Source: Tabrizicola thermarum
GTDB taxonomy: Bacteria; Pseudomonadota; Alphaproteobacteria; Rhodobacterales; Rhodobacteraceae
Assembly: GCF_003574395.1 (NCBI RefSeq)
Contig: NZ_QMJY01000081.1
Coordinates: 62,001-126,000, forward strand
Direction of reading: 5' to 3'
Length of the DNA stretch: 64,000 nucleotides
In this document: positions 2,648-58,065 of the stretch, in pieces
How positions within the stretch are numbered: position 1 is the stretch's first letter
Layout: every line of letters starts with the position of its first letter
Position numbers and translations under genes: made by a program
Notes under the pieces: generated by a model
Database searches by the model: none
Seen by the model: only the letters and a program-made list of their open reading frames with translations
Told to the model about the DNA's origin: nothing

Positions 2648-4789
2648 ATGTTCAATGTGACCAAGAAATCGATCCAGTGGGGCAGCGAGACGCTCACTCT
2701 GGAAACGGGGAAAGTTGCGCGCCAGGCCGATGGGTCGGTGATCGCGACGCTGGGCGAGACCCAGGTGATGGCCAACGTGACCTTTGCCAAGACGGCGAAG
2801 GAAGGTCAGGACTTCTTCCCCCTGACCGTTCACTACCAGGAAAAATACTACGCAGCCGGCAAGATCCCCGGCGGCTTCTTCAAGCGCGAGGCGCGGCCCT
2901 CGGAAAAGGAAACGCTGGTTTCCCGCCTGATCGACCGCCCGATCCGCCCGCTGTTCGTGGAAGGCTTCCGCAACGAAGTGCTGGTGATGTGCACCGTGCT
3001 GTCCTGCGACCTCGTGAATGATCCCGACATCGTGTCGATGATCGCAGCCTCGGCGGCGCTGACCGTCTCGGGCGTGCCGTTCATGGGTCCGATCGGTGCG
3101 GCCCGCGTCGGTTTCGTCGACGGAAAGTATGTGCTGAACCCGTCGATGGACGACATGACGCAGCTGCGCATGAAGCCCGAACAGCGCCTTGACCTGGTCG
3201 TCGCCGGGACCAAGGACGCCGTGATGATGGTGGAATCCGAGGCTTACGAGCTGACCGAAGAGGAAATGCTGGGCGCCGTGGTCTTCGGCCACGAACAGAT
3301 GCAGCCGGTGATCGACCTCATCATCGACTTCGCCGAACATTCGGCCAGGGACCCCTTCGACTTCACCCCGCCGGACTATTCGGCGCTGTACGCCAAGGTA
3401 AAGCAGGCCGGTGAGGCTCAGATGCGCGCCGCCTTCGCGATCCGCGACAAGCAGGAACGCACCACTGCCATCGAGGCCGCGGTCGAGGCGATCAAGGCCG
3501 CGATGACCGAGGAAGACCGGGCCGACCCGAACCTTTATCCGGCGATCAAGAAGCTGGAATCTGCGGTTCTGCGCGGCGACGTGGTGAAACATGGTCGCCG
3601 GATCGACGGCCGCGATACGAAAACCGTCCGCCCGATCGTCTGCGAAACCGGCGTGTTGCCGCGCGCGCATGGCTCGGCCCTGTTCACCCGGGGTGAAACG
3701 CAAGCCCTGGTCGTCACCACGCTGGGCACCGGCGAGGACGAGCAGATCATCGACGCGCTGAACGGCAACTACCGGTCGAACTTCCTTCTGCACTACAACT
3801 TCCCGCCCTATTCGGTCGGCGAAGTGGGTCGTGTGGGCTCGCCCGGCCGGCGCGAAATCGGCCATGGCAAGCTTGCCTGGCGCGCCCTGCAGGCGGTTCT
3901 CCCGGCCCCGACCGACTTCCCCTACACCATCCGCGTGGTCTCCGAGATCACCGAATCGAACGGCTCCTCCTCCATGGCCTCGGTCTGCGGTGGCTCTCTG
4001 TCGATGATGGACGCGGGTGTGCCGCTGAAGGCGCCGGTGGCGGGTGTGGCCATGGGTCTGGTGCTGGAAGAGGACGGCGACTGGGCGGTCCTGACCGACA
4101 TCCTGGGCGACGAGGATCACCTCGGCGACATGGATTTCAAGGTCGCGGGCACCGCGAACGGCATCACCAGCCTTCAGATGGACATCAAGGTCGCGGGCAT
4201 CACGCCCGAGATCATGAAGCAGGCCCTGGCCCAGGCCAAGGACGGCCGTATGCACATCCTGGGCGAGATGGCCAAAGCCATCAGCGCGCCGCAGGGCTTC
4301 AGCGAATACGCGCCGAAGATCGAGACGATGCAGATCCCGACCGACAAGATCCGCGAAGTGATCGGCTCGGGCGGCAAGGTCATCCGCGAGATCGTGGAGC
4401 AGTCGGGCGCCAAGGTCGACATCAACGACGACGGCCAGATCAAGATCGCCTCGAACGACGCGGGCGCCATCAAGAAGGCCTACGACATGATCTGGTCGAT
4501 CGTGGCCGAACCCGAAGAAGGCCAAGTCTACACCGGCAAGGTGGTGAAACTGGTCGACTTCGGCGCCTTCGTGAACTTCTTCGGCAAGCGCGACGGTCTG
4601 GTGCACGTGTCCCAGATCGCCAACAAGCGCCTGAACCACCCGAACGAGCTTCTGAAGGAAGGCCAGGAGGTCAAGGTCAAGCTTCTGGGCTTCGACGACC
4701 GCGGCAAGGTCCGTCTTGGCATGAAGATGGTCGACCAGGAGACCGGTGAGGAAATCACCGAGAAGAAGGAAGAAGCCGCCGAGGGCTGA
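2648..4789 (+). CDS. pnp: Polyribonucleotide nucleotidyltransferase (PNPase)
   Basis: Phosphorolytic 3'-5' exoribonuclease of the RNA degradosome, 713 residues, full length. Two RNase PH-like domains are visible: the first near residues 1-145 ([20 protein letters not shown]), the second near 310-540 ([39 protein letters not shown]). Then come a KH domain ([15 protein letters not shown], about 560-580) and an S1 domain ([17 protein letters not shown], about 625-695). AGAGGAAA lies 8 bases before the ATG. The usual upstream partner rpsO is not between bciA and pnp. A strong terminator follows the stop codon. Confidence 0.98.
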
Positions 4790-52880: not shown

Positions 52881-53660
52881 CTACATGATCGGCGCGTCGC
52901 TTGTTTCGAAGACCAGCGTCGGCAAGGCACCCGTCGCGTCGGCGTCCGGAGCCGCCCGGGTAGCGATCAACCGCTGGCTCCACACCGTCTTCTGCCCGGC
53001 CTGAGCAACCAGCCGCAGCCGCAGATGCGCGCGGTCCTCGCTCCAGGCCCCCTCGATGTGCAGGTCAAGGCCCTCGGGGATCGGTTCGCCCGCAGTGTCC
53101 CGCAGCAGGTATTCGGCCGCCATCCGGGCAATCGCGCCGGCCAGGTCGCGGGCGATCCCGACCTCGGTGCCTTCGGGCAGGGCGCCAAGCCGCAGCCGGA
53201 ACGGCTGGGCCAGGCCGGACCGCGTCCCGGCGCCGACCCCGAACCGCTGCGCCAGCCGCTGCCGTTCCTCGGCCAGCCAGTCGCGGAACGCCGCGTCCAT
53301 GATGTCGATCCCTTCCAGGAAGTCGCGGCCCTGGCTCATGGCCAGCCGCACGGCGTCGGGATCCTGCTGGATGTCGGTGACAAACCCCGTCAGCCTCACG
53401 CAGTCGCGGTCGCTTTGCAGGTGCCCTGCCAGCGGACCCAGGGCCTTGCGCACTTCGGTCAGCGCCTGCCGCAGACTGCCCGAGGCCTGCTCCTGCCCGC
53501 GATCCGACCAGAGCCGCATCTCCAGCCAGCGGCGCGGACGGCAGTGGTCGGGTGTCTGGCACAAGAGCGCCAGGATCGCCCGTGACTTGGCCCCCCGTGG
53601 CGTAAGGTCCCGCCCCGCTGCGTCCTGTATCTGGAACTGTCCGATCAGCCGGATGAACAT
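52881..53660 (-). CDS. BTAD/SARP-type transcriptional regulator
   Basis: 259 residues. An OmpR-like winged-helix domain (FIRLIGQFQIQDAAGRDLTP; GAKSRAILALL) is followed by a bacterial transcriptional activator segment (SGSLRQALTEVRKALGPLAG; CVRLTGFVTDIQQD). There is no receiver, NACHT or kinase domain; the C-terminal 100 residues are unassigned. It is divergent from the PLP-enzyme-like gene with a shared 318-base control region, so that gene is its most likely target. ATG 53660 begins the conserved domain. Confidence 0.85.
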   Translation of the reverse strand: MFIRLIGQFQIQDAAGRDLTPRGAKSRAILALLCQTPDHCRPRRWLEMRLWSDRGQEQASGSLRQALTEVRKALGPLAGHLQSDRDCVRLTGFVTDIQQDPDAVRLAMSQGRDFLEGIDIMDAAFRDWLAEERQRLAQRFGVGAGTRSGLAQPFRLRLGALPEGTEVGIARDLAGAIARMAAEYLLRDTAGEPIPEGLDLHIEGAWSEDRAHLRLRLVAQAGQKTVWSQRLIATRAAPDADATGALPTLVFETSDAPIM

Positions 53661-53978
53661 CGCCGTCGCCTCGCATGTCGCTGCGGTTTTCCTGTGCGGC
53701 GACTGTCGGACAGCCAGCGTGAAATTTACGTCAATCGACCCGGGCCCCAGTGCCGAAGCGAGAGAAAATCGTGAAATCGCGGGAAAGGCGGGCCGTGAAA
53801 CCGCCGCGATCACGGCTGATTCGCCGCAGCCCGACCCGCCTGGCCCGCAGATTTCCGGGGATATCGGCGTTTCACGGGGAATTAACGCGCAGTTTTCCCC
53901 CTTGACGTCAGGGTCAGACAGGGATGGCGGCAAACCCTGCCCAGGTCCAGACCCCGGACACCGCAGAAAGGCCGCATC
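53661..53978. other. Divergent control region of the BTAD regulator and PLP-like gene
   Basis: 318 bases with no gene. Seen here: the palindrome CTGTC-G-GACAG (53703-53713), close upstream of the regulator; a TTGACGT element on the minus strand (53728-53734); and TTGACGTCA on the plus strand (53902-53910). The two TTGACGT copies face away from each other and each could be a -35 element, but no convincing -10 partner is visible. Confidence 0.5.
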
Positions 53979-55139
53979 ATGCCCAGACCCGCTCTTGCCC
54001 AGACCGAAAAGCCTGCGTCCGATGGTCTTGCCCGGCTTCTGGCCGGCGGCCTGTTACCGGCCTGCCCCAACCCTCCCGCCGACCGGCTTCGGCCCGGAGC
54101 CGACTTTGCCAGCCTGAATGCGCTGGGACTGACCGCACAAACCGAACCCGACGCAGCTGTCGGGCCGACGATGCCGGACCTTGCGCTGGAACAGCGGATC
54201 GCGGCGCAACTGTGCCTGCCCAAGGCCGTGATCTACGCCTCGGGTACGGACGCCATCCGGTACACGGTCGCTGCCCTCCTGCGTCCGGGAGATCAGGTTC
54301 TGGTCGATGCCGGGTCCGATCCCGCCATGTTCGGGACTGTTCTGGCAAGCCGCGCTCACCTCCACCGCTTCCCTTCGGGCTCGGTCGAGGCGGTGGAACG
54401 ACGCCTCCGGCGCCTGTCCCGCCAGCCGCATCACGGGCGGCTGGTGATCGCTGTTCCCGCAGTCTCGGCCCTTGGGTCGCGCGTGTCGGACATCGCCGGT
54501 CTCTGCGACCTCGCCCGCCAACACGGCGCCCTTCTGATCGTCGATGCGTCGCAGGACTTCGGCACCATGGGCCTCAACGGCGGGGGAGTGCTGGAGATCC
54601 AGAACTGTCTCGGCCGGGCGGATGTCGTGCTGGGCAGCCTGTCGCGCTGCTTCGGAAGGCCGGGCGGCTTCGCCGCGTTCCGCGATCTCGACCCGTCAAG
54701 AGCCGCCCGACACGCGCCCCGTCTGTCGTCGGGGGCTGTCGCAGCATTGACCTCGGCCGCCGCAAAGGTCCTCGGCGCGCCGGGCCGCGACCTGCGCCGC
54801 AATCTGCTCGGCGTCTCGCTTCGGCTGCGCAATCACCTGATGGCCGATGGCACGCGGGTGCTTGGCTCGGCGTCGCCCTTCGTGCCGGTCCTGCTCCCGC
54901 CGCCGACCGCGCTGCCCCGCACTGCGCTGCTGGAAAGCGCCGGACCGCGCGTCACGCTTTTGCTGCCGCCGACCGTCGCACCGCAAGCTCCGCGCTGGCG
55001 GATCGAGCTTGGCACCCGTCACACCCTGTCAGACATCGACGATCTCGCCGACCTGATCCGAGACGTCAGCCGCGCCTTCGACAGGCGACCGTTCCGGGCC
55101 CGGTCAGGCCTCTATCCCTTCACCGATGCGGTGACATAG
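53979..55139 (+). CDS. Alpha-oxoamine-synthase-like protein lacking the PLP lysine
   Basis: 386 residues with the overall pattern of 5-aminolevulinate or serine palmitoyl synthases. [15 protein letters not shown] corresponds to their SGxxAN block, [19 protein letters not shown] to VDEAHxxGxxG, and [16 protein letters not shown] to GTLxKAFGxxGG. The catalytic lysine is replaced by Arg223. The PLP-stacking His region (NHAS) reads SDPA, with Asp114, and the His after VDEA is replaced too. The conserved Asp189 remains. It therefore looks like a pseudo-enzyme, or an enzyme without PLP chemistry. The 3' end overlaps ubiG convergently by 28 bases. Confidence 0.82.
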
Positions 55140-55849
55140 TTGCAGCTCAGATCCCGGTCCGACAGGCTCCACCGCCAGGTCACCGGGTTGAACACCATCC
55201 CCTTGCGATCCACCGGGCGCAGCCCCGCCTTTTCGATCAGCGCATACAATTCGTCCGGGGTGATGAACTTCTGCCAGTCATGCGTGCCCTTCGGCAGCCA
55301 GCGCATCACCCATTCCGCGCCGATGATCGCCATCATGAACGACTTCGGGTTCCGGTTCAGCGTGGAACAGATCATCAGCCCGCCCGGTTTCAGCAGCTGC
55401 TGACAGGCGGTAAGGTAAGCCTGCGGATCGGCCACATGCTCCACGACTTCCATGTTCAGCACCACGTCGAACCGCTCGCCCGCTTCGGCCAAGGCTTCGG
55501 CGGTCGTGTGGCGATAGTCGATCTCCAGCCCCGACTGCCGAGCGTGCGCCTGGGCCACCGGAATGTTGCGTGCCGCAGCATCCGCCCCCACAACCTCGGC
55601 CCCCAGCCGCGCCATCGGCTCCGACAAGAGCCCGCCCCCACAGCCGATATCCAGAATCCGCAGCCCCTTGAACGGGGCCGACCCCGCCAGGTCCCGCCCG
55701 AACTCGGCGGCGATCTGCGCGCAGATATAGTCCAGCCGACAGGGGTTCAGCATGTGCAACGGCTTGAACTTGCCGTTCGGGTCCCACCACTCGGCCGCCA
55801 TGGCCTCGAACTTGGCCACTTCGCCGGGATCAACCGTATCCACCGCCAT
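55112..55849 (-). CDS. ubiG: Ubiquinone biosynthesis O-methyltransferase
   Basis: Performs both O-methylations of ubiquinone synthesis. 245 residues. Start region [22 protein letters not shown] motif [19 protein letters not shown] near residue 65, [14 protein letters not shown] and the UbiG-specific [16 protein letters not shown], with [15 protein letters not shown]. Divergent from the aminopeptidase gene, 55 bases apart. Confidence 0.96.
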
Positions 55850-56882: not shown

Positions 56883-57269
56883 CTAGCGGCCCCCGTTCTC
56901 CCGGCCAATTCCCAGAAGCCGCTGCATCGCGGTCCGCAACTCGTGCGTGACGGTCGACCTGACAAAGGGCAGTTCCAGCACGCGAAACTGCGCCGGGACG
57001 TCGCTGCCCTCGTGGCCCATAAGCACCACCATCGCCCGCATCGCCTCCAGCCTCTCGACCAGACCCGTCCGCGCCAGCGCCAGCGGCGACAGGTTCAGGA
57101 AGGCAATGTCCACCCGATGGTCGCGCAGGATTTCCGCCGCCCTCTCGGGCGTGCTTGCCATCAGCATCCGCGTCCCAGGCATCGCGTCATCCACCATGGT
57201 CAACAGGTCCTCTGCCACCAGGGCAACGGGTTCCAGGACCAGGCACGTCAGTTTGATGTCATTTTCCAC
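56883..57269 (-). CDS. Degenerate receiver-domain-like protein
   Basis: 128 residues with the size and alternating pattern of a response-regulator receiver: LTCLVLEPVALVAEDLLTMV, VDIAFLNLSP and a final helix. The phosphate-accepting Asp position reads Asn59, and the acidic pair of the first strand is reduced, so normal phosphorylation is unlikely. No output domain. It ends 6 bases from the convergent aminopeptidase stop and is divergent from the Crp/Fnr gene. Confidence 0.75.
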   Translation of the reverse strand: MENDIKLTCLVLEPVALVAEDLLTMVDDAMPGTRMLMASTPERAAEILRDHRVDIAFLNLSPLALARTGLVERLEAMRAMVVLMGHEGSDVPAQFRVLELPFVRSTVTHELRTAMQRLLGIGRENGGR

Positions 57270-57303
57270 AGCTCCAATGGAACGCTTTCGGGCCCGCCCG
57301 CAT

Positions 57304-57330
57304 TAACCTGTGTTATGTTTGCAGAGGTTA
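57304..57330. promoter_or_regulatory. Inverted repeat between the receiver-like and Crp/Fnr genes
   Basis: TAACCT-N15-AGGTTA lies in the 70-base divergent region. It could be an operator or part of the leader of the Crp/Fnr gene. It is not a canonical FNR box (TTGAT-N4-ATCAA). Confidence 0.4.
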
Positions 57331-57339
57331 CTGCCGAAG

Positions 57340-58065
57340 ATGATCGATTGCGCCGCCTGTCCGTTGCAGAAACGCTCGATGTTCCTGCCCTTCACGCCCG
57401 AAGAGATCGTCTTCATGCGAGCGTTCAAGCACGGCGAGGCAACTTTCCAGCCTGGCGAAACTCTCCTGTCGCAGGGCGAACGCTCCGACCGCCTGTTCAC
57501 CGTGCTGGAGGGCTTTGCCACCCGGTCGATCCAGCTGGAAGACGGCCGCCGCCAGGTGGTGAACTTCGTCTTCCCGGGCGATTTCCTCGGCCTTCAGGCC
57601 GGGATCATGGGCGAAATGCGCCATTCGGTGCAGGCCACGACACCGATGCGGGTCTGCGTCTTCCAGCGCAGCCGGCTGTGGGACCTGTTCCGCGACAAGC
57701 CGGACCGCGCCTACGACCTGACCTGGATCGCCGCGGTCGAGGAGCACTTCCTCGGCGAAACCATCGCCACTCTCGGCCAACGCGACGCGACCGAACGTGT
57801 CGCCTGGGCCCTGGCACGGATCTGGCAGCGGCTGTCTGCTCTGGGACTTGGCACAAGCGACGGCGTCCATCTGCCCTTCCGCCAGCATGAACTCGCCGAC
57901 GCGCTCGGCCTGTCCACCGTCCACACCAGCCGCACCGTCTCGATCCTGCGCGGCATGGGCCTTCTAGTCTGGAAGCGCGGCCGGCTGAACATGCTCGACC
58001 CCGAACGCATGTTCACCCTTGCGGGCCTGCCGATGGAGCGTGAGGAACGCCGTCCGCTGATCTGA
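57340..58065 (+). CDS. Crp/Fnr-family transcriptional regulator
   Basis: 241 residues. N-terminal cyclic-nucleotide-binding fold (VVNFVFPGDFLGLQAGIMGE near 86-105), dimer helix, and C-terminal helix-turn-helix (ELADALGLSTVHTSRTVSILR). Two Cys at the start (DCAACPLQ) and one in MRVCVF do not make the complete four-Cys cluster of FNR, so oxygen sensing is not assured. ATG 57340 is chosen; a GTG ten codons earlier is in frame. Target genes are unknown. Confidence 0.9.
   Translation: MIDCAACPLQKRSMFLPFTPEEIVFMRAFKHGEATFQPGETLLSQGERSDRLFTVLEGFATRSIQLEDGRRQVVNFVFPGDFLGLQAGIMGEMRHSVQATTPMRVCVFQRSRLWDLFRDKPDRAYDLTWIAAVEEHFLGETIATLGQRDATERVAWALARIWQRLSALGLGTSDGVHLPFRQHELADALGLSTVHTSRTVSILRGMGLLVWKRGRLNMLDPERMFTLAGLPMEREERRPLI

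Follow-up and report, generated by a model that had tools for sequence, protein, structure and literature searches.

In the window, by which we mean the whole 64,000-nucleotide stretch of Tabrizicola thermarum DNA analysed here, a regulator of predicted SARP/BTAD type and a divergently transcribed protein with the fold of the alpha-oxoamine synthases (AOS) appear to form a self-contained regulatory module, the target of which would be a maintained, non-catalytic AOS-fold protein (Table 1). We give this reading a probability of roughly 0.6. Since the protein has lost the PLP lysine and both active-site histidines and is still under selection, its probable mode of action is binding, not catalysis.

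Table 1. Features of the regulator/AOS locus, in positions of the window.
Feature	Position	Strand	Remarks
AOS-fold protein without PLP lysine	53979..55139	+	386 aa; 3′ end overlaps ubiG by 28 bp
Arg223 codon, PLP-lysine position	54645..54647	+	column alignment
Asp114 codon, position of the PLP-stacking His	54318..54320	+	column alignment
Gln192 codon, position of the third conserved His	54552..54554	+	column alignment
Short regulator, predicted SARP/BTAD type	52881..53660	-	259 aa: winged helix, BTAD, tail of ~100 aa; no TPR domain
Predicted operator TTGACG-N5-TTCACG, upstream of the regulator gene	53718..53734	-	repeat pattern
18-bp element TTCACGGGGAATTAACGC (predicted operator TTCACG-N5-TTAACG), upstream of the AOS gene	53871..53888	+	
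ubiG, conserved convergent neighbour (context)	55112..55849	-	

The alpha-oxoamine synthases are a textbook family of PLP enzymes. The 386-aa protein of the window matched the Pfam model Aminotran_1_2 (E = 1e-15; 58.3 bits against a cut-off of 19.7) as well as the NCBIfam models for SPT, BioF, KBL and ALAS, all of the latter far under their equivalog cut-offs, and its closest solved relative by sequence was the KBL structure 1fc4 (E = 1e-27). The same structure ranked first among PDB matches (TM 0.74) for an AlphaFold model built on the 16 orthologs (mean pLDDT 78). By Pfam, NCBIfam, and sequence and structure comparison, both the AOS sequence profile and the AOS fold are present, and the protein is confirmed as a relative of the AOS branch of fold-type I PLP enzymes. 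When aligned with SPT-, KBL- and ALAS-type relatives, it carries Arg223 (GSLSRCFG) in the column of the PLP lysine, Asp114 in that of the stacking His and Gln192 in that of the third active-site His. The earlier note, which had described an AOS-like protein with Arg223, Asp114 and a third histidine gone, was therefore borne out by the Pfam match, the match to 1fc4 and the column alignment. The Asp that serves the PLP ring nitrogen is retained as Asp189 and is invariant in all 16 orthologs, while Arg341 aligns with an Arg of SPT and KBL, a position taken by Cys in two Lys-less orthologs (L017, L018). As to the structure prediction of the PLP pocket proposed in that note, the model recovered the fold, with pLDDT above 75 in most blocks between residues 71 and 370, but was weak over residues 191-210, which adjoin the active site; its first 40 residues were weak as well.

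Among the 16 orthologs, the lysine was kept in seven (G016, G017, G018, G027, G015, G005 and G021) and replaced in nine, by Arg in G000, G010, G019 and G024, Asn in G009, Pro in G003, Ala in G004, Glu in G028 and Gln in G013. Conservation of Arg223 had been raised as a check, with intact lysines taken as the sign of a recent point mutation; intact lysines do occur, but the nine replacements and the multiple changes on the AOS tree rejected a single recent mutation and pointed to repeated loss. Sequencing error was likewise rejected, since the five members of the main Lys-less clade come from separate assemblies and show four different residues there. Six of the seven Lys-keeping orthologs also retain both histidines, with Pro at the stacking-His site of G021, and G019 combines Arg at the lysine site with both histidines. 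The loss of His nevertheless tracked that of Lys (both kept, Lys only, His only and neither: 6-1-1-8 for H114, Fisher p 0.009; 7-0-3-6 for H192, p 0.011, in tests that ignore the relatedness of the genomes). In a tree of 33 rows from which the Lys and two His columns had been removed, G000, G010, G009, G003 and G004 formed a single Lys-less clade (support 100/99), and the presence or absence of Lys required a minimum of six changes, three of them in the genus by our own reading of the tree; these three losses are a minimum because the tree supports the grouping of G028, G013 and G024 only poorly.

An AOS ortholog (E up to 1e-20) was present in 16 of 32 Tabrizicola genomes, and in 11 of the 23 with completeness of at least 90% and contamination of at most 5%. 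The regulator gene was found in 23 of the 32, counting strong matches and leaving out weak ones in G012, G014, G020 and G029, and all 16 AOS genomes are among them, so that the linked pair suggested by the earlier note recurs in other genomes; in G027, the regulator lies on a different short contig from its AOS gene. Seven genomes have the regulator without AOS, including G025 with a short form, and nine have neither gene. In 15 orthologous loci, ubiG and pip stand beside the AOS gene, the sixteenth (G027) being a 4.6-kb contig; dxs is next in line in 13 of the 15, with no dxs match in the stretches of G017 and G018. Between pip and dxs (56883-58065), the window carries two genes, one small and response-regulator-like and the other FnrL-like; in the neighbourhoods of relatives examined, matches to the two came from G010, G003 and G007 alone. 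The link to ALA or heme that had been drawn for this locus found no support: the AOS gene lies between ubiG and the regulator, the genome's two ALA synthases are on other contigs, and the AOS and regulator genes of relatives flank PAP2 and S8 genes. In its favour is the one point that the genome carries reaction-centre genes.

Specifically, a larger locus in relatives comprises a regulator with a TPR tail, a PAP2-family protein, an S8 protease and AOS. Genes for an S8 peptidase and a PAP2-family protein sit between AOS and regulator in G028, G015, G005, G024 and G021, as well as in G027, in two pieces; in G015, both score over the Pfam cut-off. Only fragments of the two middle genes remain in G013, and in nine genomes, that of the window included, the stretch contains no S8 or PAP2 match. 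The regulator/AOS pair of the window is thus a reduced form of this four-gene locus. The PAP2-family protein has what we take to be a VHPO-like motif arrangement, and His-Gly-Ile or His-Gly-Thr repeats follow one another at its N-terminus. This run is coded by a tandem DNA repeat, the number of which varies between species (L034:9578-10870 (-); L035 ~2690-3977 (+)), and the repeat-bearing protein showed a weak match, under the cut-off, to the His-Xaa-Ser repeat protein HxsA4.

Beyond the genus, 46 of 248 genomes of the family gave a match to the S8 peptidase. Among the best 17 S8 loci of other genera, PAP2 and regulator were both present in 15, while L070 had PAP2 only and L081, near a contig end, had neither; AOS adjoined the S8 gene in one, L072. 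Adjacent S8 and PAP2 genes also occur on plasmid p1 of Paracoccus albus, where the next gene is annotated as hypothetical, and on plasmid pP72_b of Phaeobacter inhibens, together with a winged-helix gene. The S8 peptidase, PAP2 and BTAD/TPR regulator genes therefore constitute a recurrent family-wide module (L034:7418-12525; L069-L085), to which the relatives' locus adds AOS, and from which the window differs by its lack of S8 and PAP2 and by its short regulator. We found no paper in the open-licence literature that names this module.

The locus-linked AOS of other genera were Lys-less in all three genomes in which they were found (Pro in G175 and G424, Met in G373). G327 and G326 have a BTAD-like match close by and no S8 or PAP2; the first has Arg at this position and the second retains Lys. 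Lys-less copies with S8 and PAP2 present (G028, G024, G373, G175 and G424) mean that the lysine was lost in full and reduced loci alike, and the loss of S8 and PAP2 does not explain that of Lys. As the lysine is kept in seven of the 16 orthologs, six of them with both histidines, and in G326, some members of the group still have an enzymatic role. More distant AOS of Sphingomonas, Mycobacterium and Bradyrhizobium retain Lys, and no S8, PAP2 or regulator match lies beside them (loci of up to 8 kb on each side). Several further arrangements were seen in these searches. In G175 (L072:1-2100), the Lys-less AOS and S8 are separated by an ORF that resembles, by eye, an M15-type peptidase ending in a peptidoglycan-binding segment. 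A Burkholderiales MAG (L159:3277-8547) has a Lys-keeping AOS, a LuxR-type regulator (by eye), and S8-like and PAP2-like proteins adjoining. Paired Lys-keeping AOS genes occur in G354 and Rubellimicrobium mesophilum (L171:8164-11706; L158:5472-10391), one of each pair in a common subclade, and an AOS-like protein of an Opitutaceae MAG (L168:4353-5222) has Ser at the lysine position and a long branch. In the open-licence literature, no title found suggested a bacterial AOS without the lysine, either next to a regulator or in general.

The strength of selection bears most directly on whether the Lys-less gene is maintained, or is a relic of a dispensable enzyme drifting under weak constraint and on its way out, which we consider rather unlikely. 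Codon models (IQ-TREE, GY+F3X4; omega fixed at 1 with kappa held for the neutral comparison) gave the five-member Lys-less clade an omega of 0.208 over 381 codons and 0.17 over the core, and strongly rejected neutrality (lnL -5337.8 vs -5530.2 with omega = 1, a cost of 192 log-likelihood units). For comparison, omega was 0.148 for Lys-keeping AOS (five sequences, full length; 0.12 for six sequences, core), 0.18 for G028, G013 and G024 together with the Lys-keeping G005, 0.127 for the regulators of the Lys-less clade, and 0.04-0.06 for the neighbours ubiG and pip; the regulator value in the Lys-keeping set (0.024, tree length 19) was saturated and was discarded. The reading frame is uninterrupted in all 16 orthologs (381-413 aa), the single stops listed in seven matches lying at the 3′ ends. 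Moreover, 143 positions of the window protein are invariant in the five Lys-less copies vs 134 in six Lys-keeping ones, a comparison which the fewer rows favour slightly; invariance was lost at Lys, the stacking His and their neighbours, and the C-terminal domain remains conserved. The Lys-less AOS protein is thus under clear but moderate constraint, and the linked losses described in the earlier note stand, Lys and both His having been lost together in a clade under purifying selection. What speaks for decay is that no AOS match was found in 16 of the 32 genomes, nor in 12 of the 23 more complete ones, that omega exceeds that of the neighbouring genes, that remnants of S8 and PAP2 adjoin the Lys-less copy in G013, and that the lysine position drifts through R, N, P and A within a single clade. 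Against it, besides the cost of neutrality, the intact frames and the invariant positions, stands the loss of Lys in loci where S8 and PAP2 are still present. The looser constraint on Lys-less copies (0.21 vs 0.15 for Lys-keeping ones and 0.04-0.06 for ubiG and pip) also counts against the module that we favour, as do the presence of the regulator without AOS in seven of 23 regulator-bearing genomes, the retention of Lys in part of the group and the rarity of AOS beside S8 in the other genera (one of 17 loci).

The divergent gene had been called a BTAD regulator, a label that fared unevenly. Its product fell under the cut-off of Pfam Trans_reg_C (16.7 vs 26.2 bits), leaving BTAD weak in Pfam, but a Foldseek search with its model returned as top PDB chains the AfsR SARP structures 8hvr (E 2.4e-4) and 8k60 (3.0e-4), followed by EmbR (E ~0.01), although TM was only ~0.4 over the whole chain and the tail was modelled poorly. 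We accordingly predict, from the model, a winged helix followed by BTAD, as in SARP/BTAD proteins. A 350-aa ORF reaching 53933 was rejected, as the starts of orthologs give 259 aa from an ATG (MFIRLIG), and because the start was set in this way the divergent intergenic stretch is ~318 bp rather than 45 bp. Regulators are 253-266 aa in the nine reduced-locus genomes, including that of the window, and 539-541 aa in full-locus genomes, where they carry a TPR-like tail just under the Pfam cut-off that recalls the TPR domain of AfsR. In G019 (L028:1052-1968) and G007 (L041:132-1735), the regulator gene is spread over two frames, by decay or assembly error.

The promoter region which the two genes were said to share is a divergent control region with predicted regulator sites. 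Both predicted operators have the form TTNACG-N5-TTNACG, an 11-bp direct repeat of SARP type, and SARP regulators bind repeats spaced 11 bp, according to the parts available of two sources (PMC10936776, PMC5930380). The element upstream of AOS is identical over its 18 bp in all 16 orthologous loci, a further point against decay, and occurs as a single copy in the window's genome, even at two mismatches. Across 47 loci, the pattern was matched 59 times at the 11-bp period vs 0-8 times at 15 other periods, a count inflated by related loci, and across 19 loci (18 of other genera and the diverged G020 locus) 21 times vs 0-2. In 12 of 17 loci, the repeat lay 86-126 bp upstream of the regulator match on the same strand, the misses being L073, L080, L083, L085 and L174; L070 and L081 had no regulator to test. 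The whole genome contains four exact repeat sites, two of them at the window locus (one for a reversed-pattern control); the other two, at or between gene ends, look like chance, and a wider regulon was rejected on this search. In G022 and G025, both without AOS, the AOS-side repeat survives at one or two mismatches and was therefore not made for AOS alone. Of five genomes with the long regulator only, G030 and G031 have the repeat, and none was found in the stretches of G006, G007 and G026. By eye, there was no clear -10 element 8 bp from the 3′ repeat, the spacing usual for SARP targets, upstream of either gene. Taken together, the spacing and placement of the repeats suggest that the regulator may bind both. 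The predicted fold and the 11-bp direct repeats upstream resemble those of AfsR, EmbR and PimR, but no NOD domain was found in the regulator, the host is an alphaproteobacterium, and the repeats adjoin S8 protease, PAP2-family and AOS-fold genes rather than an antibiotic cluster.

The protein could also be a silent subunit of an active AOS, one that dimerises with, and tunes, a Lys-bearing AOS made elsewhere, in the manner of SPT1/LCB1 of eukaryotic serine palmitoyltransferase. According to an excerpt of PMC6148460, SPT1 lacks the lysine, the equivalents of His159 and His234, and also Asp231. The window protein is like it in retaining the AOS fold, together with the C-terminal domain, without Lys and both His, and three further AOS-family matches exist in the genome, two of them ALA synthases over the cut-off. 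However, no active AOS is linked to the gene within the window, the other AOS of the genome are only 26-29% similar to it, and the equivalent of the Asp absent from SPT1 in that excerpt is kept here as Asp189. SPT1 furthermore has a known active partner and membrane helices, whereas the neighbour here is the gene of a DNA-binding regulator, and we regard a silent subunit as improbable. Lysine-independent PLP or other catalysis, with another residue as base, is very improbable: Asp189 is retained, Arg341 is aligned with the Arg of SPT and KBL, and the PDB title of SPT K265A with a bound PLP-myriocin aldimine indicates that the fold can hold PLP without Lys, but both active-site His are lost too and the replacing residue varies (R, R, N, P and A in one clade), unlike a new catalytic residue.

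Under the favoured reading of a regulatory module, the SARP/BTAD-type regulator would bind two 11-bp direct-repeat operators, that of its own gene and that of the AOS-fold gene, and would thereby control both. The AOS-fold protein would descend from a PLP enzyme that is a member of the four-gene locus in relatives and would act through a ligand or a partner protein, for which the regulator itself would be the most economical choice, closing a feedback loop; the protein may be a sensor, as the earlier note proposed. We infer that the protein is without activity and feeds back on the regulator, as a first guess at its role to which an SPT1-like partnership and slow decay are the main rivals. A precedent is offered by the MocR/GabR regulators, such as EnuR, in which, by the portion available of PMC8739950, an aminotransferase-type fold without enzyme activity is the sensor for a winged-helix regulator. 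The pairing of such a fold with a predicted winged-helix regulator is shared. In MocR/GabR, by the same portion, the DNA-binding and aminotransferase domains form one chain, in contrast to the two genes of the window, and EnuR conserves and needs the PLP lysine that the window protein has lost; the window regulator is moreover of SARP/BTAD type. It is a doubtful extension that the locus represents a split relative of the MocR principle, in which a SARP-type regulator would control, and be tuned in trans by, an AOS-fold pseudoenzyme acting as ligand sensor or anti-activator, the pseudoenzyme having arisen repeatedly in Rhodobacterales at the S8-PAP2-regulator locus and the loop having outlived, in some lineages, the enzymes it once served.

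One Lys-less AOS branch, SPT1/LCB1, is described in the literature surveyed. The predicted operator provides a direct handle on the regulator/S8/PAP2 module of many genera of the family, a description of which we did not find in the literature. In addition, a bacterial AOS branch with repeated loss of the lysine, in which Lys-keeping and Lys-less orthologs occupy one locus in one genus, represents a natural experiment in the passage from enzyme to binding protein.
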